Source of the DNA: a virus
Reading direction: 5' to 3' (one strand)
DNA: 44,541 bases
Virus record (IMG/VR): IMGVR_UViG_2162886007_000060
Location: 1-44,541 of that record
A program made the position numbers and the translations under genes. Below, one piece after another: positions 7,040 to 31,480 of the stretch. The notes beneath the pieces were generated by a model. That model saw only the letters and a program-made list of their open reading frames with translations, searched no databases and was not told where the DNA came from. Position 1 is the first letter of the stretch. Each line of letters starts with the position of its first letter.

Positions 7040-7256
7040 CATTTATACATTGTATAGACTATACACACTCAAGTACTCACAACAGTCGGCGTTTGGGTTT
7101 TTATGCTACAAGCGCTACAAGCAATTCAACAATGCGAGGGGCTTGAGACAGAGCTTCTATTCCGTCCGCGTGCCTTGTGGCTGTGGCAGTGTTTGGGAAT
7201 TGGCCGGGGACTACCTCCTCTACTTCACACCACGCGCACTCACTAGCTGGCAGTGA
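7029..7256 (+). CDS. Possible small protein in the control region
   Basis: A 75-codon frame with a GTG that falls in the terminator stem; the true start, if any, is probably further in. The product would be Tyr/Arg-rich, with a Cys-Gly-Cys near residue 50. Its stop overlaps the ATG of the next frame (TGATG at 7254-7258), which is the only argument that it is translated. There is no good ribosome site at the start. I treat it as uncertain. Confidence 0.25.
   Translation: MLFFIYTLYRLYTLKYSQQSAFGFLCYKRYKQFNNARGLRQSFYSVRVPCGCGSVWELAGDYLLYFTPRALTSWQ
7044..7056. promoter_or_regulatory. TATACANTGTATA dyad, copy 1
   Basis: Perfect copy (TATACATTGTATA) just after the terminator of the candidate small RNA. 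It overlaps a second palindrome, TGTATAGACTATACA (7052-7066). Confidence 0.65.
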
Positions 7257-9794: not shown

Positions 9795-9807
9795 TATACA
9801 GTGTATA
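9795..9807. promoter_or_regulatory. TATACANTGTATA dyad, copy 5
   Basis: Perfect copy (TATACAGTGTATA) beginning at the very next base after the TAG stop of the DUF932 gene. It is followed by the hairpin at 9827-9853. Confidence 0.7.
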
Positions 9808-9826: not shown

Positions 9827-9853
9827 GGTGAGTGGCCGTGCTTAACACTCACC
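9827..9853 (+). terminator. Hairpin between the DUF932 and PEP-CTERM genes
   Basis: GGTGAGTG (9827-9834) pairs perfectly with CACTCACC (9846-9853) across an 11-nt loop. There is no T-run, so it may slow, attenuate or protect rather than terminate. It ends 19 bp before the PEP-CTERM start codon, close to its ribosome site. Confidence 0.45.
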
Positions 9854-9872
9854 ATCCTAGGAGACTACAAAC

Positions 9873-10685
9873 ATGAGGCTGACAAGAGGAATACTAGCAG
9901 CAATCGCGCTGTTAGCGGTGGCAGATATAGCACGTGCTGTAACTGTTGACGACCCACTTCACGGCATCATCTGCAGTGGAGTAGGTACTGGCTGCAGTAA
10001 TGCAGCGGACAATGGTAGCTTCACGCCATTGTCACAAACAAACAACTGGAGCTTCGCTATTAGCCCCGGTCCTGCAACTGGTGACTTGACGTTGGTGTTC
10101 TTAGTACCTACCAACACAATCAACGTCGCCTTGTTCAACCTACCCGGCATTACTGACAACAACTTACCCACTATTGGAGCAACAGTATTCGATAGGGTGA
10201 ACTTGTTCACAGCAGCATCACCGGGTGTGTCTACATACTTAGGCTTAGCAGGTGCCTTCTCACCTACTAACAACTTCGCCAACAGCAGTGCTGGTGAAGC
10301 TACACTCAATCCCGGTTTCTTGGGTGCGTTCCTAGCATTCACCTTAACACTTAACGATGTGACACTAGGTGATGTTGCTAGTACTACAACAGCACATGAC
10401 TTCTCGTTTGGCAGTAACTTGCCAGCCGGGACTGTGATCTTAGGGTTGTTCATTGAGGAGTTCGACAAACATGGCAACCCCTGCACTAACAACTGTGCTA
10501 TAGGCACAGCAGCTAGTGCTGATTTAGTAATCACACCATTTGCTGCAGAAACCCCACTACCAGCCGCAGTGTGGCTGTTCGGTGGTGGCTTAGGTGTGTT
10601 AGGTGTGTTAAGCAGACGTAGGCGTAAGTCAAGAGGTGCGTGGGATGACTTACCACGTGTAGACTTCTTGCCTAAAGTTGTGTAA
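9873..10685 (+). CDS. PEP-CTERM-type exported surface protein
   Basis: The 270-residue protein has an N-terminal signal peptide (basic MRLTR, hydrophobic core, cut near ADIARAV). Its middle region is Asn/Thr/Gly-rich with four cysteines. The C-terminal sorting signal has PLPAAVWLFGGG (about 228-239), a short hydrophobic helix and RRRRK (about 248-252). That triad is the hallmark of PEP-CTERM proteins, which exosortase processes in Gram-negative bacteria that make extracellular polysaccharide. Unusually, 18 residues follow the basic cluster; the signal normally ends there. The ribosome site TAGGAG is good. A dyad and hairpin precede the gene and a hairpin array follows it, so it looks like an inserted single-gene unit (moron). 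A surface-altering or superinfection-related role is inference. Confidence 0.9.
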   Translation: MRLTRGILAAIALLAVADIARAVTVDDPLHGIICSGVGTGCSNAADNGSFTPLSQTNNWSFAISPGPATGDLTLVFLVPTNTINVALFNLPGITDNNLPTIGATVFDRVNLFTAASPGVSTYLGLAGAFSPTNNFANSSAGEATLNPGFLGAFLAFTLTLNDVTLGDVASTTTAHDFSFGSNLPAGTVILGLFIEEFDKHGNPCTNNCAIGTAASADLVITPFAAETPLPAAVWLFGGGLGVLGVLSRRRRKSRGAWDDLPRVDFLPKVV

Positions 10686-10712: not shown

Positions 10713-10789
10713 GCAACGGCGCTTTTACTAACTACCAGCAAGAGCGCCGTTGCTCTAGCGAGCAACAGCGTTCGGGCACTTCGTGCCCG
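10713..10789 (+). terminator. Hairpin array with mutually exclusive stems after the PEP-CTERM gene
   Basis: Stem 1 pairs GCAACGGCGCT (10713-10723) with AGCGCCGTTGC (10743-10753). Stem 2 pairs GTTGCTC (10749-10755) with GAGCAAC (10760-10766) and shares bases with stem 1, so both cannot form at once. Stem 3 is CGGGCAC-TTC-GTGCCCG (10773-10789). No strong T-run follows. The arrangement resembles an attenuator or a structured terminator separating the PEP-CTERM unit from the next operon. Confidence 0.6.
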
Positions 10790-12519: not shown

Positions 12520-12929
12520 CTAACAACGGTGGTAAGCCTTTGGTAGATCAACTACACGAACAAGCTGCACGCGGTGTAGAGGCTATCCAGTTGATAGTAA
12601 CTGAACGCGATGACCTACGCCTACAATCAGATCGTATGAGCGCTGAACTCGCACTCATACGCGAGCGCAACAATCAACTAGAGAGCCGTCTTAAAACGGC
12701 AACAGTCGAGCGTGACCACTACATGCGTCACGCTGTTGAGTTAGTGAGTAGACTTAACAACATTCAGTTGTTGATAGTGAGTGCAGTAGAGGAAGCAGGT
12801 AGAGTAGCCTATCGACCATCGCTTGTAGGCAAGGCACGAGAGCATGAGACAGTAACTAGTGAAGATGTTAAAGCTATTGAAGGCATCTTGAAGCGCCTAC
12901 CACAGAACAATGGGGATACAACACAATGA
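12516..12929 (+). CDS. Coiled-coil protein
   Basis: The 137-residue product is coupled to both neighbours by ATGA overlaps. Residues 10-85 form an almost continuous charged heptad-like helix (Glu/Arg/Leu/Gln-rich), followed by a short basic link and a C-terminal helix. It is probably a dimerising or scaffolding factor. I recognise no family. Its position directly ahead of the GHKL-like ATPase gene raises the possibility that it works with that protein. Confidence 0.7.
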   Translation: MTNNGGKPLVDQLHEQAARGVEAIQLIVTERDDLRLQSDRMSAELALIRERNNQLESRLKTATVERDHYMRHAVELVSRLNNIQLLIVSAVEEAGRVAYRPSLVGKAREHETVTSEDVKAIEGILKRLPQNNGDTTQ

Positions 12930-14173
12930 CTAAAGCTATATGCTTCTACAACGATGGCACTCTAGATCACCGTGCATTCACCATGCTCGGCTTGAGTGCT
13001 AAGTCAGATGACAAAGCCATAGGCTTCTTCGGCACTGGCTTCAAGTACGCTATCGCTACACTCCTACGCTGTGGCTGTGATATAACTGTACACGTGCACG
13101 ACAAACATGGTGAGTTCGATGAGTACAAGTTCTTCTCTGTGCAAGGCCACTTCCGTGACAAAGAGGTGGAGTTCATCTACTACAACGATGGCAAGAGTGA
13201 CCACGAACTGCCATTCACTACACACTTGGGTGCCAACTGGAAGCTGTGGCAAGCCTATCGTGAGCTATACACCAACGCGCTCGATGAAGGTGGTGGTGTA
13301 GAGCTAGTTGACGACATACATTGCTTCAACCCTGCCATTGGCGACGTATGTGTGTACGTCATGGGTGATGAGTTTATACGTGTATATGAGCAGCGTGCCA
13401 AGTACTTCTTGAAGGCTGAACCACTCGCTGCATCCTTCCGTATGCGTTGCGTTGAGAAGATAGCCGATAGTGACAACGTTGTATACTACAAGACCATGTA
13501 CACCGGCACTAAGTTGGACAAGCCTACTCACTTCACTTACGACTACACAACCACAGTAGAGCTAACTGAGGATAGAACTATAGGCGATACATGGTCACTA
13601 CGCCATCACATCAGCCACCTGTGGCTAGAGCACATGAGCTATGACTTCCTTATTCAACACCTACCAGCTATAGCCAATGAGAAGATGTACGAGAACCAAC
13701 TCTCTGCAGACTACTGCACACCTAGCGATGACTTCAATCGTGCGTGTGCTTATCTCAATCAGCACCACCGCTCGATGCCACTATGGGCGCGTGATGCATA
13801 CAACCGTAGTCGCCCATTCGATGAACAAGTTGAGCACTTCAAGCCTAACAGGTGGCAGCGTACTCAACTCAAACGTGCCATTGCTATCCTACACTACAAC
13901 GGGAGCATGATTGACCCTGCTACTATAACCACGTGCGCTTCTCTACCCGAAGACGTTATAGGCTTGTACAAGAACGGCACAATCTACATCACTAAGGAAG
14001 CGTTCGAGCGTGGCTTCTTAGCACTACTCGGCACGTTGTATGAAGAATACACACACCTAACTACTGGCTACGAAGATGGCACTAATCGGCTGCAGAACTT
14101 GCTAGTAGATAAAGTAGCCAACCTGATGCAGCAAGTCTATGAGATGGACAAGGAAACTGAGGGGAGTGAATGA
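12926..14173 (+). CDS. GHKL-like ATPase with permuted motifs and degenerate peptidase-like tail
   Basis: Near the N-terminus (about residues 9-43) the protein reads YNDGTLD, GLSAKSDDK and IGFFGTGFKYAIA. This matches the consecutive G1, SxK and G2 boxes of Hsp90/MutL/MORC-type ATPases. The N-box-like RELYTNALDEGGG comes later (about 112-124), although in normal GHKL proteins it comes first; the order suggests a circular permutation. The last 50 residues hold LYEEYTHLTTGYED (about 371-384), which resembles a metallopeptidase HExxH with the first His replaced by Glu. The gene is ATGA-coupled on both sides. ATP binding is a reasonable inference; the substrate and role (host takeover, counter-defence, DNA handling) are unknown. 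Confidence 0.65.
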   Translation: MTKAICFYNDGTLDHRAFTMLGLSAKSDDKAIGFFGTGFKYAIATLLRCGCDITVHVHDKHGEFDEYKFFSVQGHFRDKEVEFIYYNDGKSDHELPFTTHLGANWKLWQAYRELYTNALDEGGGVELVDDIHCFNPAIGDVCVYVMGDEFIRVYEQRAKYFLKAEPLAASFRMRCVEKIADSDNVVYYKTMYTGTKLDKPTHFTYDYTTTVELTEDRTIGDTWSLRHHISHLWLEHMSYDFLIQHLPAIANEKMYENQLSADYCTPSDDFNRACAYLNQHHRSMPLWARDAYNRSRPFDEQVEHFKPNRWQRTQLKRAIAILHYNGSMIDPATITTCASLPEDVIGLYKNGTIYITKEAFERGFLALLGTLYEEYTHLTTGYEDGTNRLQNLLVDKVANLMQQVYEMDKETEGSE

Positions 14174-14803: not shown

Positions 14804-15518
14804 AGACAAAGTGCCGCAGCACGTTAAAGATCAGCGTGCTGCGGCTGCTGCTGGTAGAACTGTTGGCAAACGCACCAAGCAACTACGCCACCACCGTGAG
14901 CGTAGTGAGAGCTATGACGTATTCCGTCGCATCAACATGCACAATGGTGACAAAGACGTATGTTGGGAATGGCTCGGCGCTCACGGCACAGGCACACGCG
15001 GTGAAGTACGTCCGCGTGTGTGTATCGACAAGCGTCACTACTACGTCTACCGTGTAGTCTACGAGCTTTATACAGGGTATAAGCTGCAGGAGCGGGAAGT
15101 TGTCCGCCATGCGTGCGACAATTCGTGGTGCTGCAACCCATACCACATGTTGATAGGCTCACAAGCTGACAATGTAGATGACATGCTGCAACGCGAACGC
15201 GTAGGTCTGAAGCACTACCAAATCCGTCGCATCATGCAAGCGTTGGAAGTCGGTTGCACCGCTACTGATGTGTGTGTGATGATGAAACAGGGCTACAACC
15301 TATCACTAGACGAAAGCGTGGTGCGCAAAATCCGTATGCGTGTGATCTACAAGCACATTGACTGGCCGTGGGGTGATGCCTATGCCAACTTGCGCAAGCG
15401 TAGATTGGCAGAGTTGAGAAATCAACGACTTGCATCTGATCCTAAATCTGCTATAATAAGTGATAGTCAACAAGGAGCTACAACACATGGCGAAGAAAAG
15501 GAACGTAAAGATGACTAG
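14796..15518 (+). CDS. HNH endonuclease (free-standing)
   Basis: The 240-residue protein has a basic, Ala/Arg-rich N-terminal arm (to residue 40), then CWEWLGAHGTG (56-66) and a beta-hairpin, then VVRHACDNSWCCNPYHMLIG (102-121). The last carries the His (105), the Asn (114) and the terminal His (117) of the HNH active site. It continues with SQADNVDDM, as in HNH_3-type nucleases, and a C-terminal helical DNA-binding region. These enzymes nick or cut DNA and are often mobile in phages. The ATG at 14796 overlaps the preceding gene. The last 30 codons contain promoter 15430-15457 and look compositionally different, so the C-terminus may have been extended by insertion. Confidence 0.85.
   Translation: MTKDKVPQHVKDQRAAAAAGRTVGKRTKQLRHHRERSESYDVFRRINMHNGDKDVCWEWLGAHGTGTRGEVRPRVCIDKRHYYVYRVVYELYTGYKLQEREVVRHACDNSWCCNPYHMLIGSQADNVDDMLQRERVGLKHYQIRRIMQALEVGCTATDVCVMMKQGYNLSLDESVVRKIRMRVIYKHIDWPWGDAYANLRKRRLAELRNQRLASDPKSAIISDSQQGATTHGEEKERKDD
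15430..15457 (+). promoter_or_regulatory. Early promoter 4, inside the HNH gene end
   Basis: TTGCAT (15430-15435), a 16-bp spacer and a perfect TATAAT (15452-15457) with an extended TGC. It is 30 bp upstream of the ATG at 15487 and lies within the 3' end of the HNH coding sequence. Confidence 0.75.
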
Positions 15519-15954
15519 TCCTGAGAAGAAAGAGCTACCACTCGAAGCACGTGCTATACAATGTATAAATGCATTCCTAGCACCGAAGACCACGCAGGAT
15601 GCAGTAGACCAAGTAGCTGCTGAGTTCTTGACTGCTAACCTACTCCGCACACATGCTGAGAAGCGCTACGAAGCTGCCAAACGTTCTATAGCTGCAGCAC
15701 ATGAAGACAAGATCAATGATGTGCGCAATCGTGCTAGCGAGAGCATGATGAAGTCAACTATCATGCTCTACGGCAGTGATTGGGTGTTGAACTTGAACGC
15801 TAATCGTCCTGCTACACGCTGCGACGTTGATGAGCTACGAACAGAGCTAGTAAGGATGGGAATAAGTGTTGATGTGCTAGACGAGGCAATCGCTAAGGTA
15901 ACAAAGAAGTCTACGCCAGCGTTAGTAATCTCTGTCACTCCCGTTGCGGGGTAA
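15487..15954 (+). CDS. Unknown early protein
   Basis: ATG 15487 follows AAGGAG at 15472-15477; the longer frame from 15460 ignores this. The 155-residue product starts with a basic segment (MAKKRNVKMTSPEKK), followed by helices rich in Ala, Glu and Arg, and ends in a short hydrophobic strand. A perfect dyad copy (15555) lies in its 5' coding part. No family recognised. It opens a new transcription unit (promoter 15430-15457) of small proteins leading to the recombination genes. Confidence 0.7.
   Translation: MAKKRNVKMTSPEKKELPLEARAIQCINAFLAPKTTQDAVDQVAAEFLTANLLRTHAEKRYEAAKRSIAAAHEDKINDVRNRASESMMKSTIMLYGSDWVLNLNANRPATRCDVDELRTELVRMGISVDVLDEAIAKVTKKSTPALVISVTPVAG
15555..15567. promoter_or_regulatory. 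TATACANTGTATA dyad, copy 7 (inside a gene)
   Basis: Perfect copy (TATACAATGTATA) about 68 bp after the ATG at 15487, where it encodes AIQCIN. It lies roughly 100 bp downstream of promoter 15430-15457, a good place for a roadblock. Confidence 0.6.
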
Positions 15955-15959
15955 TACAC

Positions 15960-16385
15960 ATGTCCAATGACGACAACGGCAAAGTCGTCAAGCTGCGCCA
16001 GCCTCAGGTCAACAAGCCTGCGGCTGGCGTTGGCGTTGGCGCGAGTATTGATGAAGCTATCAATCCTAAGTCCTTTATGAACATGTCTGACTTAGAGCAA
16101 GACATGTTCCTACAGCAGCTACGCGAACGTCGCATGCGCGTGGTTGAAGTACTCAAAGCAGCTAAAGCTGCCAAGTCTCAAGCAACTTCAATAGCTGCCA
16201 AGGTCAAGCTAGAACGCAAGATAGATCAGTTGGAGAAGCAACTTGAACGCACCACCAAGGCGCTCGATAAGCTCGAAGAACTTGTATACGATGTGCGTGC
16301 ACTTACTCTCCAACACACTGATACAGACATTACAAGGGTCGCAGATAATGTCAAGATCACCACCGACAACGGAAGCAAGAGCTAG
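15960..16385 (+). CDS. Coiled-coil early protein
   Basis: The 141-residue product has a disordered, charged first 40 residues, a Met/Leu-rich helix, and a strong Lys/Glu/Leu coiled coil (about residues 75-115). It starts 5 bp after the preceding stop. I see no enzymatic motif; an oligomeric accessory factor is plausible. Confidence 0.65.
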   Translation: MSNDDNGKVVKLRQPQVNKPAAGVGVGASIDEAINPKSFMNMSDLEQDMFLQQLRERRMRVVEVLKAAKAAKSQATSIAAKVKLERKIDQLEKQLERTTKALDKLEELVYDVRALTLQHTDTDITRVADNVKITTDNGSKS

Positions 16386-16680
16386 ACTAGCTCGCCTCCG
16401 CTTCAAACAACAAACCACCAAACGTGCACGCATTGACCTGATGCTACAGCCGTTAGTAGCTGCAGCGCTTAAAGGCCCATTCGTGCGTCATCTTGCAGTC
16501 AACGAGCGTGCTGGTCTAATTCAGTTCCGCTTCGCTGGTCGTCGTGTGCAGTATTGGGTAGGTGCACGTAAGCTGCTAGTCAGCAACGCGATAGCTTCTA
16601 CAGTGTATATAGACTACCGACCCGATCAGCTAGTGCGCGATGTAGCTGTGACTAATCCTAACTGTGCTTTCAACTTGTAG
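16348..16680 (+). CDS. Small basic protein
   Basis: I choose ATG 16348 (110 residues) after an AAGGG site at 16333; the frame upstream to 16243 lies inside the coiled-coil gene. The N-terminal third is very Arg-rich (ARARLARLRFKQQTTKRAR) and would suit nucleic-acid binding. The second half is beta-rich (LIQFRFAGRRVQYWVG). It ends at the ribosome site of the next gene. No family recognised. Confidence 0.6.
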   Translation: MSRSPPTTEARARLARLRFKQQTTKRARIDLMLQPLVAAALKGPFVRHLAVNERAGLIQFRFAGRRVQYWVGARKLLVSNAIASTVYIDYRPDQLVRDVAVTNPNCAFNL

Positions 16681-24344: not shown

Positions 24345-27300
24345 CTACTCAGCACTAGCACCTGCGCTAGCAGTAGGATTGCTAATGCTCTCACGCAACA
24401 TCTCGTCAATCGCCTTCATCGTTATAGGACGACCCTGCAAACGTGGAGCCAGCACCTTGCCGTACTTGTCACCAACAGTCTGCTCGAAGTACTTGGTGGC
24501 TAGGTGCTGTTGCTCCATGTTGTCCTGCATACGACCGATGATGATGTTCTGCCTACGAGTGCGTTCCTCTTGCGGCAAGTTATACTGCACAGCAACAGCA
24601 CGGTTCTGATTGCTCAGCACATTGTATTCCTTGTGCAGCTTGCCGAGTGTACCAGTCGGGTTCTGCCACGCCTTCACATCTTGTGCAATCTTAATCAACG
24701 TCAAGTCACTCAGCACTTGTGGCGCTATACCACCAGCCTGTTGTGCTTGCTGCCTACGCAACTGTGCAGCCTTGCCAAGCACATCATCACGCATGCCTGA
24801 GATTGACCTGATGTACTGCTGATTGTCTTTGACATACTGCCAAGCAGGTGTGCTGACTTTGTAGCGTTCCTTGTTCTGCCATATCAACGGCACATCTGGC
24901 GCGTTAGTAGTGGCTTTGTTGTATATCTCCGTAGTAGCAGCCTTCAACCCTGCAGCGAAGTCTGCACTCTGTCTAGGTGTAATAGGCCCCAAGGCACTAC
25001 CAGCCTGAGGGTGAAACTTTGCAGCGTGTAGTGCTACATCTGTACTCGCTGCCAGATAGCTACCAAAGGCACCGAACAGTGCGTTCATCGTCAACGCTGT
25101 AGAGTTGCTGACTTGGCCTAGATTAGTGACACTCTCTGACTGCGGCCCTGAACGGAATGCACTACCGAAGTTGCGTATCCACTGACCACCTCTTGTATCA
25201 GCACCTTGTGGGTCTAGCTTCATACCGCTCTGTGCGAGCAGCGCTTGCAACAGCGGCGGCATAGCAGGTGTCAAGCTGTCTATCCATATCTTCGGCAAGT
25301 CATGTGCTATCGGTCTAGGAGTAGCACTGCCGGGTATCATGCCCATCATCTGCATCATCGCCGTTGCACTGGCAATGATACCAGTGAAGTCAGGCGGCAG
25401 TGTTATGCGGTAGAACAGCTTGCGATTGAAGTTAGGGTTCTCACCTTTGTACCATGCCCACAACAACTGCGGTGTAGGTACATCAAAGCTACGCCACCTG
25501 TCGTACTCAGGTGTACGCTCCCAAAGGTCTTTCCTGCTTTCCTCATTCCAGTACGTGCGCCAGTAGTAGCTCTGTCCAACAGCATATGTCATCAGTGCCA
25601 GTCTAGGCAACATGTAGCTAGCAGTCTCAGGACTACCCATGTGCCTCATCAAGTGCCATGCACCTAGCTTCGTCTGCGACAAGTAGGGCATAGCAACTTC
25701 TAAATCCTTCATGCCCTTGCTAGCTGGCACCTTCGACATGTCGCCGCCGATAGCACGTGTCTCGTACTGCAGCTTGACCATCTCCTTCTCAGGTATATTG
25801 CCGCCGTACTTGGCATGTAGCAGTGCGTAGTTCTCGGTGTAGAACATGCGCTTGGGAGCGAGATACACACTATCAAGTACATCTGTGTAGAAGCGCCATG
25901 CACCTTTCAGTGGACTAGGCACCATCTCTTTGATAGCTTCATAGTGCCCACGCACTTGCGCCACATTATCTATGTCTCTGTTACCACGCGCTGCACCAAA
26001 GCGCTGCATCTTGACAGTGGCGAAGTTCTCAGCCATTGAAGCAACCTTCAACGACGCGCCGACCATTGCATGATAGTTCCTTTCACCTACAGCACGACGA
26101 AACGCGTTGAACGGTTCTAGGCTAGACAAGCCATCAGCGATCTTGCGCGTTGCATAGTGTGCAAGCATCTCCGACACAGCCATAGCCGCATGATACGGCA
26201 CAGTGACCAGTGCAGTAGGATCGGGTATACGGCCTATAACGTGCTTAGCAATGCTCTCAGGCAGGAAGCGATTGCCTAAGTAGCTCAGCGTTCCAAACGA
26301 CCTGTTAGGCATGCGCGTTAAGATGCCCACTAGCAGATCATAGGCAGCACCCTTGAGTGTGAAGATAGGATTGCCACGACCTGTAGTAAAGAACTTGAAC
26401 CACCTACTCGTGACACCTAGCGTCTTCATCATGCCGTTGAAGCGTACAGGGTCTTGCCTCAACCACGCTGCATAATCACGATCACCTATCTCCCAAAACT
26501 TGACGTTGCCATTCTCCCACTGAGGCACAACATTAGGATCACTCATCGCCTTCTGCACATACGGCGTTTCAAGCTTGTTGTTTGGTATCCACTCTTTGTT
26601 GGTAGTAGGATCACGCATAGGACGTATGTTGCCATTGCGTACTAGGTCAGACGGCGTTCCATCTGGCTTAGTAGTCAACAACCTGATGCCTTCATTGCGT
26701 GACCGAGTTAGTGCTTCCTCTCTGTATATGTCCTGCGTGTATCTAGCTATAGAAGTGCGTGGGTCTTGTACAGCAGTGACACGTGTCTCAGGATCATTCA
26801 GATCACGTACAGGTGGCACCTCTCGCTTGAACTCATGTATAGGACTTTCACGTGCCATCGCCTTAGTAGCACCTTCAACGTCACGTGTCATAGCGTTGTC
26901 AACGCTGTTCATAGCTGAACGCCACACGCGATTGAAGCCAGATAGTCCTTTCAGTGGGTCGTTGATGATAGGCATGTAGTAGGGGTCTTGTGCACGCATC
27001 CTAGTAGCAGCAGTTGGACTTTCCTTACCACTACTCACACGCACTGCCATTACATCGTCAGCCCACTTCTTCCACGCATCTCTAACACGCTGCATCTCTG
27101 GCGATGGATCATTCTCAAATGCATGCGCTATAGCTTGCTTCTGTGAAGTAGGTAACTCAGGCAGTGCAATACGCGCACTCGCATCAGCGTCATCTCTGAG
27201 GCGTGCTAGATCACTCTTAGCCTTGGTCAACTCAGTGCTGCTAGCAGGGTCTTTGAGTGTCTTCTCTAGGTTGTCAATCTTCTCTACAAGCTCACGCTCA

Positions 27301-28613
27301 ATCATTTTATGACGCGACATAAGAGTTGACATTATCCCGCCGTCTAGTGCAGCACGCATATCTGCATTAGGCAGATTGTCTATCGCTTGGAACAACTCAC
27401 GTGTGACAGCTTCAGCCTCCGCGGGCGCTGTATCATGCAACACCGAACCACTACCTGATCTAAGAGCCTCCATCCAGTTCGCTTCATCACCACCATGTGT
27501 GCGCCTAATCTCTGCCAACGGCCCGTAGCCTTCATCGACAAGCTGCGTTGTAGCTCGTTGAATGAGACTAGTGGGCTTGTTCATAGTACTCTGTGAAGGC
27601 TCAGCATACAGCCGTTGCTCAGCGCCAGCGACGATAGTAGGCTCACCTACACGTGGCTCAGCAGCAGTACGTATGTTGACAGAACCTTGTTCCTCTAGCG
27701 CACGTGCAGTGCTAGTACGTGCAGCTTCACTAGCAGCTAACACCTCACGACTGCGACCTTTGACAGCGCCGACGAGTGCGGCTAGCCCTGCTATACCTGC
27801 ACCTGTTGCAGCTAGTGCACCAACGCCAGCACTATCAGTCGGCGTAGGAGTGAATGCTGTAGGCTTGTCTTGTGCATAGCGTATAGCTTGATCTATGCCA
27901 ACACCAACTGCAGCGTTCGCTGCTACGTTTGTCCCGGTGTAAGGCATAGTAAGTGGAGTGAGCAACTCAGCACCCTTGAGTGCAACACGGCTAGCGGGGT
28001 TATTGACAATCGCATTAGTAACTGCATTACCAGCAGCACGAGTACCCAACTTAGTAGCCCAACCAGCAGGGCCAGGTATAAGCGCACCGCCCGCGATCTC
28101 TGCAGCGCTCTCTGTCCAACTGCGTTGATTAGAGGGACGCTCGTCACCTAACAACCTACGCACAGTGTCCTTAGCTTTCGTTGCTAAGTATGCACTACCG
28201 CTAAGCTGTTCGGTGGTAAAATCCTCGAATTGTTTAGATTTCTTGTACTGTTCCAAGCCTGAGTTGATGGTATCATCATCCAGTTGTGGATTGCTCGCCT
28301 TCCACGAGTTAGCAACCTCATTCAAGTGATTGGTGATGTTCTTCTGTGCGTCTTCAACCTGAATGTTCTTGGCGAACTCATCCATGAACTTTGTATCATC
28401 TGCATATGATCTGTATAACGCACTGGCACCTGAGTACGCTAGCCCCGGTAGTGCGAGTATGTCAGTAGGCGTAGTAGCAACACCAACAGCGAGCGACTTG
28501 AGATGGTCTTTAATACCACCGCCGCCAGTTTGCTCAGCTAGCACATCATTCGGGTCTTTGCCGTACTTGGCGATGTACTCATCGCGCGTCATATCGACAT
28601 AGGCATCACTCAT
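24345..28613 (-). CDS. Giant ejection-type (internal virion) protein
   Basis: This 1422-residue protein is the last gene of the late arm. Residues 35-45 and 70-300 are Ala/Gly-rich with hydrophobic, possibly membrane-inserting stretches. The middle (about 330-700) is helical and charged. Its later part, with NPIFTLKGAAYDLLVGIL and further hydrophobic helices, resembles the LPD38-type domain of large phage polyvalent or ejection proteins. Such proteins are stored in the head or tail and cross the host envelope to make a DNA channel. It overlaps the stop of the 956-residue protein by 4 bp. The domain name is from memory of the family; no search was done. Confidence 0.7.
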   Translation of the reverse strand: MSDAYVDMTRDEYIAKYGKDPNDVLAEQTGGGGIKDHLKSLAVGVATTPTDILALPGLAYSGASALYRSYADDTKFMDEFAKNIQVEDAQKNITNHLNEVANSWKASNPQLDDDTINSGLEQYKKSKQFEDFTTEQLSGSAYLATKAKDTVRRLLGDERPSNQRSWTESAAEIAGGALIPGPAGWATKLGTRAAGNAVTNAIVNNPASRVALKGAELLTPLTMPYTGTNVAANAAVGVGIDQAIRYAQDKPTAFTPTPTDSAGVGALAATGAGIAGLAALVGAVKGRSREVLAASEAARTSTARALEEQGSVNIRTAAEPRVGEPTIVAGAEQRLYAEPSQSTMNKPTSLIQRATTQLVDEGYGPLAEIRRTHGGDEANWMEALRSGSGSVLHDTAPAEAEAVTRELFQAIDNLPNADMRAALDGGIMSTLMSRHKMIERELVEKIDNLEKTLKDPASSTELTKAKSDLARLRDDADASARIALPELPTSQKQAIAHAFENDPSPEMQRVRDAWKKWADDVMAVRVSSGKESPTAATRMRAQDPYYMPIINDPLKGLSGFNRVWRSAMNSVDNAMTRDVEGATKAMARESPIHEFKREVPPVRDLNDPETRVTAVQDPRTSIARYTQDIYREEALTRSRNEGIRLLTTKPDGTPSDLVRNGNIRPMRDPTTNKEWIPNNKLETPYVQKAMSDPNVVPQWENGNVKFWEIGDRDYAAWLRQDPVRFNGMMKTLGVTSRWFKFFTTGRGNPIFTLKGAAYDLLVGILTRMPNRSFGTLSYLGNRFLPESIAKHVIGRIPDPTALVTVPYHAAMAVSEMLAHYATRKIADGLSSLEPFNAFRRAVGERNYHAMVGASLKVASMAENFATVKMQRFGAARGNRDIDNVAQVRGHYEAIKEMVPSPLKGAWRFYTDVLDSVYLAPKRMFYTENYALLHAKYGGNIPEKEMVKLQYETRAIGGDMSKVPASKGMKDLEVAMPYLSQTKLGAWHLMRHMGSPETASYMLPRLALMTYAVGQSYYWRTYWNEESRKDLWERTPEYDRWRSFDVPTPQLLWAWYKGENPNFNRKLFYRITLPPDFTGIIASATAMMQMMGMIPGSATPRPIAHDLPKIWIDSLTPAMPPLLQALLAQSGMKLDPQGADTRGGQWIRNFGSAFRSGPQSESVTNLGQVSNSTALTMNALFGAFGSYLAASTDVALHAAKFHPQAGSALGPITPRQSADFAAGLKAATTEIYNKATTNAPDVPLIWQNKERYKVSTPAWQYVKDNQQYIRSISGMRDDVLGKAAQLRRQQAQQAGGIAPQVLSDLTLIKIAQDVKAWQNPTGTLGKLHKEYNVLSNQNRAVAVQYNLPQEERTRRQNIIIGRMQDNMEQQHLATKYFEQTVGDKYGKVLAPRLQGRPITMKAIDEMLRESISNPTASAGASAE

Positions 28614-31480
28614 TGTACTTCCTCAACAACAGGCTGCTCTACGTCCTCTAGTGGCTGTTGTTCTAGCATCTCATTAGGAGCGAGTATCCTGCCTGTGCGT
28701 GGGTCTACTCTAAACACACCTGCACCACCGGGAGGCGGTGGCACTGCAGTGCCGCTATTGAATACAACACCACCCGGTATGGTAGACGCAGCAGCAGGAG
28801 TACCGGGCTTAGGTTGTTTAGTAATCAAGTCAGGCGTCAACTGTGGTACAGGAGGTGTGTAGTACTCACCACCACCTGTCATCGGCATAGTCTTTACTCG
28901 CTTAGGTCCAGTATCAACAGGTATACCAGCGTTAGCCGCTGCATCACCCTTACCCCACTTGGGCCATACGAACGGCATGCTCTGTCCTACAGGTAACATG
29001 CCCTCACCTGTTGCAGCTATCATTGCACCGAGTTGGTCATTAGAACCAGCAGCGGGCATGTTAGGATCGACAACAGGTGGCGGTGGTGTAGGTGCACTAG
29101 GACCACTCAGTGCTGTAGAGAAGCCGCTAACCGACTTCGCCGCCCTATTGTAGATAGCATCAGCAATCGACTTGAAGCCTGCAGCGGGCGATACGTATTC
29201 AGGTGCGTGCTCGTTCATGTCATCTACAGTATAGCCGCTGTTCTCTGGCGTCGTTGGTGCTGTGGGCTGCGCAACAGGTGGTGCTTGTGTAGCTTGTGTA
29301 GTCGGTTGTGCAGTCTGCGGAGTAGGCTCGCTGGCAGCAGCGCTCATGTCATCAGGTATAGCTGCAATCTGTGTTTGCGTGGGTCTAGACTGCGGCAGTG
29401 GTACGTCTATAGCCAGCCGATTGACTTGTGGCTCACTAGTCATACCTTGCGCTGTCATAACAGGCGGCGACACAGGTGCACCAAATGTGCTGGTAGCACC
29501 ATACATGCTAGGCTTCCTAACAGGTGCAGCGGCAGCCTCAACAGTAGGAGCAGTGGGTGATTGTTGCGTGGGAGCAGTTGTAGCAGTGGCAGTCTCAGTA
29601 GGCTGTTGTACCCCTTTCAATGCAGCAGCACCAGCGGCTAGTTGCTGCGGCGTAAAGTTTCGCGCCGAAGGCCCGCCGCTCTGCATGTGCATACGATCAT
29701 ACGGTACACCACTGTTGAAGTGTCCACCCCACGTGAACTTCTTATCAGGGTGTGCTTGCAGTTGATAAGCTTTAGCTGCAGCGGCGAAGTTCTCATACAC
29801 CTTCCATCCCGGCACATTCGGATTGCCGAGATTGGGTATCTTTCTGCCTTGATCGTCAACGATCCTAACGTCAATAGCACGACCACTAGGGTGCCACGGT
29901 GTCCCGCGTGTTCTGCGATCTACAGTCGAAGTCACCTCGACACGATAACCAGCGGGCAGTGTACGAGATGCTTGTCTCACAGTGTCAATCAACCACGGCT
30001 GCACATTGATACCACCGCGCGTGTAACCATGTGCACCACGCTCATCAACACGCACATCACCTACATCTGGCACTCTACCGGGAGGCCGCGGAGCTACATC
30101 GGAGGTAGTTGCTCCTGCTCCTGCTCCTGATCGTCCACTAGGAAACCTACCGGCATCGCTTGTCGGCGGTGCCACCTCCTGACCTGTTGGCGCTGGCTGT
30201 TGCGCAGGTTGTCTAGGCATCTCTTGACCACGTACAGTCTCAGCTAAATAAGGATCGACCTTGCCCTTGACGAGTTTGTTGTAGAAATCACCGACAGTGA
30301 TGTTGCTAGGTACACCACTCATAATGAGTGTGCGTGAGTTGTCACGAACACTGCCGTCAGGGTTTTTCACCTCAGGCAGTATCCTAGTCAACGGTGCTTG
30401 CGCGTTTAGGTGCAAGTTAGCAAGTGCACGTGGACCAGCAACAGGTCCAAGCTGTGTCAACATCAGTATCTTCGGCACATCATCCACAGTGTTGCCTAGC
30501 GATGGCAACTTAACACCGGGAGCAGCACCTTGAGCAGTGCCAGTCTCACCAGCGAACTTGTGATAGGCGTCTATACTACGGCGCATGTTCCGCGCAGCGT
30601 GTTCGCCCATCCTGATAGGATCGCTAGTCTCCTGATCGCTGATGTTCAACTCACGACGCAGTTCTGCAGTAGTACCGAACCAGCCCATAGCACCTGTATC
30701 TGGCCTAGGTGTTGGCTTGGCATCATAACCGCCGTTGTTAGCAAGGCCCATTGCAGTCTGCAGTATGCCGCGTGGCAGCTTGTACTTACGTTCAGCAGCC
30801 TCCCATGCAGCAGTAATCTCAGGACGTATCTCAGGAAACAACTGGCCGCGTTGCTTACCACTGCTAGCACCGCGAGCAGAGCGCGGCAGTGTTGCACTAG
30901 TTGCTACAGGTGTGTACAACCGTGGCAATGCAGTGCCAGCTTTACTCTGTGCAGGTGCTTGATTGCTACGTGCCATGAGTTCTAAAGCACCACCATCAGC
31001 ACTTGCCATCGCATCATTAGGGTCTTCAACATCAACTTGTGAAGTCTTACCACTAGACGTAGGTGTGAAGTCTGTGCTAGGTGCAACAGGTGCAACACTC
31101 CCCGGTATAGTTCTAGGTGCAGGAGGTATAGGAGGTGCACTACCACCTGTACTCCCTGACATAGTTTGACCGGGTTCTAGTGGACTTGGGCCTCTACTGT
31201 CCCTGTCATATATCTTGTGCTTAGTAGCAAACCTGTCACGTTCTTCAGACCCCATACGGAAGCGACGTTCCCATTCTTCGTTAGCACGCTCAGTAGCATC
31301 TAGGCGCTCTTGTCTACGCAACTCGTTCTCGTGCATACGCATTTCACGATCTTGCAGACGTTCCTCTCTACGTGCCATGAGTGTGTAGAACAGGTGCGTA
31401 AGTGCATCCATAGCTGCAGCATTACGCATAGCAATCTCAGGCGTTAAGTCTTTAGCATTTTGACTAGGAATGACTGCCAT
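28610..31480 (-). CDS. Ejection-type protein with M15-like peptidase domain
   Basis: 956 residues. The N-terminus (25-95) is a charged coiled coil. Residues 232-305 resemble a lytic transglycosylase (GAMGWFGTTAELRRE), but the segment that should carry the catalytic Glu reads NNGGYD, so it may be inactive. Residues 520-600 match an M15-type peptidoglycan peptidase: HPSGRAID (His530, Asp537), WGGHF (584-588) and DRMHMQ (Asp595, His598), a full zinc-ligand and catalytic set. The rest is Pro/Thr/Ala-rich linker. I infer a virion protein that opens the cell wall during entry, and perhaps serves at lysis, since I found no separate endolysin. Its partners are the adjacent 340- and 1422-residue proteins. 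Confidence 0.8.
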   Translation of the reverse strand: MAVIPSQNAKDLTPEIAMRNAAAMDALTHLFYTLMARREERLQDREMRMHENELRRQERLDATERANEEWERRFRMGSEERDRFATKHKIYDRDSRGPSPLEPGQTMSGSTGGSAPPIPPAPRTIPGSVAPVAPSTDFTPTSSGKTSQVDVEDPNDAMASADGGALELMARSNQAPAQSKAGTALPRLYTPVATSATLPRSARGASSGKQRGQLFPEIRPEITAAWEAAERKYKLPRGILQTAMGLANNGGYDAKPTPRPDTGAMGWFGTTAELRRELNISDQETSDPIRMGEHAARNMRRSIDAYHKFAGETGTAQGAAPGVKLPSLGNTVDDVPKILMLTQLGPVAGPRALANLHLNAQAPLTRILPEVKNPDGSVRDNSRTLIMSGVPSNITVGDFYNKLVKGKVDPYLAETVRGQEMPRQPAQQPAPTGQEVAPPTSDAGRFPSGRSGAGAGATTSDVAPRPPGRVPDVGDVRVDERGAHGYTRGGINVQPWLIDTVRQASRTLPAGYRVEVTSTVDRRTRGTPWHPSGRAIDVRIVDDQGRKIPNLGNPNVPGWKVYENFAAAAKAYQLQAHPDKKFTWGGHFNSGVPYDRMHMQSGGPSARNFTPQQLAAGAAALKGVQQPTETATATTAPTQQSPTAPTVEAAAAPVRKPSMYGATSTFGAPVSPPVMTAQGMTSEPQVNRLAIDVPLPQSRPTQTQIAAIPDDMSAAASEPTPQTAQPTTQATQAPPVAQPTAPTTPENSGYTVDDMNEHAPEYVSPAAGFKSIADAIYNRAAKSVSGFSTALSGPSAPTPPPPVVDPNMPAAGSNDQLGAMIAATGEGMLPVGQSMPFVWPKWGKGDAAANAGIPVDTGPKRVKTMPMTGGGEYYTPPVPQLTPDLITKQPKPGTPAAASTIPGGVVFNSGTAVPPPPGGAGVFRVDPRTGRILAPNEMLEQQPLEDVEQPVVEEVQ

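Follow-up and report, generated by a model that had tools for sequence, protein, structure and literature searches.

A phage-encoded protein with a VPLPA-CTERM sorting signal, and the exchange of ectodomains and C-termini among its counterparts in environmental phages

Sorting by PEP-CTERM signals and exosortase has so far been described for bacteria, where it is linked to exopolysaccharide. The bacterial substrates (TIGR02595, TIGR03370 and PEPxxWA-CTERM NF035944) are exported and, with exosortase, sorted in connection with exopolysaccharide; they combine a signal peptide, a diverse ectodomain and a motif followed by a helix and a basic C-terminus, and the basic cluster lies close to their end (Haft et al., 2006, PMC1569441). 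PEP-CTERM proteins of Zoogloea keep exopolysaccharide on the cells (PMC9012009). Among 5.39 million open-access papers, none joins PEP-CTERM with viral contigs, viral genomes or auxiliary metabolic genes, and, by their titles and the openings of their abstracts, none of those on PEP-CTERM with phage or prophage, or on exosortase with bacteriophage, is about phage-encoded substrates.

Phage-encoded proteins of the host envelope offer a second comparison. Llp of phage T5 is a lipoprotein that blocks the receptor FhuA, SieA of P22 acts by another route, and to our knowledge neither uses exosortase sorting. Both are phage-encoded envelope exclusion proteins (Llp, PMC9586334; SieA, PMC10883804). 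The protein described here resembles them in its predicted placement in the host envelope and in being encoded by an accessory gene, and it shares with the bacterial substrates the order of signal peptide, ectodomain, motif, helix and basic cluster. Unlike the bacterial substrates, it and its counterparts are encoded by accessory genes of phages in which no exosortase was found, it carries an 18-residue tail beyond the basic cluster, and its modules are exchanged between phages. That many phages make use of a bacterial sorting signal is real and, as far as could be checked, undescribed.

The locus lies in a 44,541-base virus record from a soil phage (IMGVR_UViG_2162886007_000060), the whole of which was analyzed and is referred to as the window. 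Structural genes (portal, terminase, tail fiber) occupy the minus strand and DNA-processing genes (exonuclease, Dda-like helicase, DNA polymerase) the plus strand, a content that contradicts host chromosome and bears out the earlier sequence-only reading of the window as phage. Relatives of this phage came from many metagenomes, with DNA polymerase identities mostly of 78–98%. Elsewhere in the window, an HNH endonuclease gene (PF13392, 14793–15518), possibly a homing endonuclease, sits among the replication genes, and positions 24345–31480 hold two very large minus-strand ORFs (1422 and 956 aa), possibly for virion or internal proteins, the second of which has a weak PHROG match.

The gene of interest (9873–10685, plus strand) encodes a protein of 270 aa, with coordinates, frame and length exactly as first read; all features of the gene and its flanks given below lie on this strand, apart from a palindrome to which no strand is assigned. 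It stands behind a DUF932 gene (PF06067; 8919–9794; family match and synteny) and ahead of a phage gene (10976–11926; synteny) that adjoins DUF932 where the insert is absent. Its GC content of 0.492 is consistent with the phage, and its codon fit is the lowest among 29 genes, yet close to the others (−1.19 vs. −0.95 to −1.12). By inspection and a simple hydropathy screen, residues ∼1–22 (MRLTRGILAAIALLAVADIARA, 9873–9938) form an N-terminal signal peptide, with similar leader peptides in relatives. Cleavage is predicted after MRLTRGILAAIALLAVADIARA and before VTV, and, unlike in T5 Llp, this predicted site (between ARA and VTV) has no lipobox cysteine. Export of the protein is a well-supported prediction; its function in the infected cell we infer.

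The ectodomain (residues 23–225, 9939–10547) is rare, with two relatives at 98% identity (L002 and L003), and is unrelated to the ectodomains of other phage proteins that share its C-terminal tail. A PHROGs search returned no family below E 0.2 for the protein, and its structure prediction reached a pLDDT of 28. A 284-aa ORF antisense to the gene has no counterpart in L010.

The sorting signal (ETPLPAAVWLFGGGLGVLGVLSRRRRK, residues 226–252, 10548–10628) consists of the motif ETPLPA, the hydrophobic helix AVWLFGGGLGVLGVLS and the basic cluster RRRRK. It was recognized by NCBIfam model TIGR03370 (VPLPA-CTERM) at residues 228–251 with 28.3 bits (cut-off 25.35, E 1.3e-6), whereas Pfam PF07589 stayed below threshold (15.0 vs. 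20.7) and TIGR02595 (PEP-CTERM) was absent from the list even at E ≤ 10; the flavor is thus VPLPA-CTERM and not classical PEP-CTERM. The sequence-only reading had proposed an exported phage protein with a textbook PEP-CTERM signal and had named a missing TIGR02595 match as grounds for dropping the idea. Taken literally, that match is missing; the sister model passes its cut-off, so the exported protein with a PEP-CTERM-type signal stands and the label of textbook PEP-CTERM does not.

The whole signal falls within the last 45 residues, 18 of which (SRGAWDDLPRVDFLPKVV, 10629–10682) follow the basic cluster, more than in most phage relatives. These extra residues had been noted as atypical; they are present, and they proved to be a module that recurs across phage proteins with other ectodomains. 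The tail (RGAWDDLPRVDFLPK) reappears in L010, L046, L092 and L195, and the pattern RGxWDxLPRVxFLPK is common to unrelated ectodomains. Among the tail-sharing proteins, with the near-identical pair of the window and L002 set aside, C-termini were 59–82% identical (z 13–27) and ectodomains had no similarity (z −1.7 to 1.4). They are related only through the C-terminus and, in some of them, the signal peptide, and in profile comparisons the C-terminus alone aligned. Compared with the divergent L092, core and tail look to be under purifying selection, with pN/pS of 0.04–0.26, the synonymous sites being near saturation. Such a tail, unusual for PEP-CTERM proteins, could be a cytoplasmic tail retained instead of cleavage; its conservation may also reflect a piece carried along by recombination, or a cytosolic element acting before cleavage.

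Exchange was seen in the other direction as well. The class-E ectodomains (a class described below) of L195 and L199 are 97.7% identical and have different C-termini, one with the tail and the other ending in RRRKQKA, and a second tail, AWPKYA, is common to L193 (class A) and the second gene of L181 (class E). In the window and L002, the ectodomains are identical and the C-termini 89% identical. On the tree of class-A ectodomains the flavor of the sorting signal changes at least seven times, where two changes would suffice, and the L099/L100 pair has 97/92 support. We conclude that ectodomain and sorting signal are each a cassette of their own, exchanged from phage to phage by recombination. 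Repeated exchange of flavor on one ectodomain would be best explained by adaptation to the exosortases of different hosts, and exchange of ectodomains under one signal would fit selection on surface interactions, by analogy with phage exclusion proteins such as T5 Llp.

Mapping of 43 window proteins onto related phages allowed gene order to be compared. In the window, G001, G002, G007, G033 and G038, a PEP-CTERM gene separates DUF932 from the gene that follows; the same junction is empty in four relatives (G015, G041, G035 and G027, with gaps of 87–161 nt), and a PEP-CTERM-like gene is found after the DNA polymerase gene in G009 and G021 and after the gene matching window positions 12926–14173 in G012. 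With the junction empty in four relatives and the gene elsewhere in three others, this is a moron-like accessory gene, an addition between two genes that relatives have side by side. The proposal that it is an inserted unit is thereby supported.

That the unit has its own control and is flanked by hairpins was upheld in part. Directly 3′ of the DUF932 stop and 5′ of the gene, a pattern search and the junction listing gave an operator-like 13-bp palindrome (TATACAGTGTATA, 9795–9807); it recurs genome-wide, with 38 hits on both strands against 1.9 expected when one- and two-mismatch variants are included, some of them intergenic, and no sigma-70 promoter or T-run terminator was called adjoining the gene. 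The palindrome is probably the operator of a phage regulator. Copies or variants lie at window positions 7044, 7413, 8469, 8933, 9795, 11734, 12447, 15555, 18930 and 42780, among others, and similar palindromes of the TATAC-N3-GTATA type precede the homologous genes in L046, L048 and L045. Folding supported the downstream hairpins (10713–10789, z −4.0), namely a strong one (GCAACGGCGCT...AGCGCCGTTGC, 10713–10753) and a perfect one (CGGGCACTTCGTGCCCG, 10773–10789); the upstream dyad (GGTGAGTG...CACTCACC, 9830–9853), with its 8-bp stem, was weak and no better than shuffles (z −1.2). Between the dyad and the start codon, a leader with a Shine-Dalgarno-like CCTAGGAGACT (9854–9872) is common to the window, L046, L048 and L045 at the DUF932 site.

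In other phages a structured RNA-like element adjoins the PEP-CTERM gene, upstream or downstream (L010:9410–9520, L013:1330–1425, L046:11750–11840, L048:11640–11740 and L045:11590–11690). It consists of a long hairpin, with z between −4.4 and −7.2 in the four cases folded, and has GA[CT]GCCACA conserved on its 3′ side; it accompanies the gene at three different genome positions. The element has no Rfam match and was not found in the window.

Genes of the same design extend well beyond relatives of the window phage. Ectodomain class A (L010/L022/L048), which is unrelated to the window ectodomain, was found in at least 167 tblastn-confirmed viral contigs, a number that overstates diversity because many records are near-identical and apparently from the same sample series; the 80 that were fetched gave ∼30 distinct proteins below 93% identity. 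Further classes in phage contigs include B, E and others. Across 32 class-A proteins 27 positions are invariant, nearly all of them in the ectodomain. A terminase large subunit was present in 17 of 36 class-A carrier records and 3 of 13 in a further set of carrier records, and, from a reading of ORF C-termini, the class-A gene directly follows a terminase-like ORF in L106, L108, L116 and L132. In G060 (the record of L118), the terminase match at 15225–16574 contains seven in-frame TGA codons, which might be a recoded stop or an inserted element. Some records hold two PEP-CTERM genes with different ectodomains (L092:5666–7049, L181:8001–9352, L113:7941–9523 and L189/L198/L202), in tandem where both were located.

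The C-termini come in three flavors, VPGPxxGAG[LI]PG (most), VPLPA and PEPxxWA, two of which are recognized by curated models. VPLPA scored above cut-off in the window, G001, G002, G009, L190 and L193, and PEPxxWA reached its 35-bit cut-off in G086, where PF07589 was also passed. The signature VPGPxxGAG[LI]PGLxxA...RRRR ends the proteins of L106, L116, L121 and most class-A loci; no NCBIfam sorting model was over cut-off in L106, L121 and L104, which were scanned, and the signature suggests a candidate sorting signal not yet modeled. The structure model of class A (pLDDT 82) shows a beta-rich domain with one helix at its N-terminus and one at its C-terminus. Foldseek returned nothing for it at E ≤ 0.001, so no function is drawn from the fold. 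In a VIA comparison, the best Z of 7.8, to the beta domain of an Akkermansia enzyme, reflects a common arrangement and was not used as evidence.

Searches outside viral contigs mostly gave no relatives. Protein searches found no match to window, class-A or class-B proteins in cultured phages, nor to class-A or class-B proteins in plasmids, and a DNA search with the window locus found none in cultured phages. Scans of 84,980 species genomes for the window type and class A gave 67 and 24 pattern matches, none of them a relative; short exact peptide patterns were used, so divergent host relatives may be missed. C-terminal peptides compared with plasmids had only weak matches, including VPLPA-CTERM proteins of Roseobacter and Jannaschia. 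The window protein has a weak likeness, C-terminus included, to the Zoogloea flocculation protein PepA (NF033554; 18.2 bits, far below the cut-off of 80), with no ectodomain homology shown. The class-E ectodomain nearly reaches the bacterial PEP-CTERM family NF038126 (FxDxF; 45.7 bits, cut-off 50), which makes a host origin probable for at least one ectodomain. No exosortase (PF09721) was found in 40 phage records.

The explanation we favor, and consider rather likely, is that a moron-like gene of the phage supplies an envelope protein which parasitizes host sorting, with exclusion or masking of a receptor or the coat as its most likely benefit. That the envelope protein is sorted by host machinery seems quite probable; superinfection exclusion as the specific benefit is proposed tentatively, and effects on adhesion, receptor or polysaccharide, which the sequence-only reading had suggested, are hypothetical. 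The gene lies on the strand of the replication genes and, judging from this position, its product would probably be made in the early or middle phase of infection; the signal peptide would export it. As in the known system, a host exosortase would recognize the VPLPA-type signal and cut before the hydrophobic helix, and the cleaved ectodomain would pass to the outer surface or the exopolysaccharide, where it may block competing phages or reshape the coat. If the signal is used, a host exosortase must act, because none was found in the phages; that the hosts have one we infer. Cassette recombination would fit selection for new surface specificities and for the matching exosortase flavor of each host.

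Other readings of the same data were weighed. The sorted protein might instead join the host exopolysaccharide and make infected cells stick or disperse, aiding phage spread. Bacterial PEP-CTERM proteins do hold exopolysaccharide on cells, and mutants without the regulators of these proteins release a soluble form (PMC9012009); the class-E resemblance to NF038126 points the same way. The window ectodomain, however, gives only weak sub-threshold scores against PepA, and the pattern scan of bacterial genomes met no window-type or class-A ectodomains, in contrast to bacterial substrates; we regard matrix remodeling as unlikely. Less likely again is a plain inner-membrane anchor, in which helix, arginines and tail would hold a periplasmic protein with a cytosolic tail; such a protein might serve in lysis or keep DNA from entering. 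A tail kept across unrelated ectodomains, seemingly by purifying selection, is not expected of a discarded peptide, but an anchor would have no need of a VPLPA or PEPxxWA signature, two flavors of which pass curated cut-offs, and the same ectodomains also occur with short, tail-less C-termini.

Conservation of the signal under a freely exchanged ectodomain is what would be expected of a decoy, an abundant phage substrate that occupies the host exosortase and so keeps host surface proteins from being sorted. Such a role gives no reason to maintain an ectodomain of 150–200 residues, let alone the invariant positions of class A, and we consider a decoy very improbable. Finally, the gene might be host DNA misbinned into a viral record, or a passive passenger that has no function, since IMG/VR contigs can hold host DNA and many carrier contigs have no terminase match. 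In the window and its relatives, however, the gene lies between syntenic phage genes, its composition matches the phage and it is kept intact at several sites, which leaves this last reading hardly credible.

Sorting by a host exosortase to alter the infected cell's envelope is the reading we carry forward. On a broader scale, the proposition that environmental phages hold a large stock of surface proteins, most of them phage-specific, assembled from interchangeable cassettes with flavors tuned to host exosortases and re-dressing infected cells (e.g., against rival phages), is in our judgment evenly balanced. If true, phage substrates without the enzyme, bearing swappable signals of several flavors, would be a new route to alter the host envelope and would give a handle on the unknown pairing of exosortases with their substrates, and signal flavor would be a possible clue for host prediction in uncultivated soil phages. 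Many environmental phages have genes of this kind, in which outer parts and tags can be swapped, and this suggests that infection by such phages remodels the cell surface.
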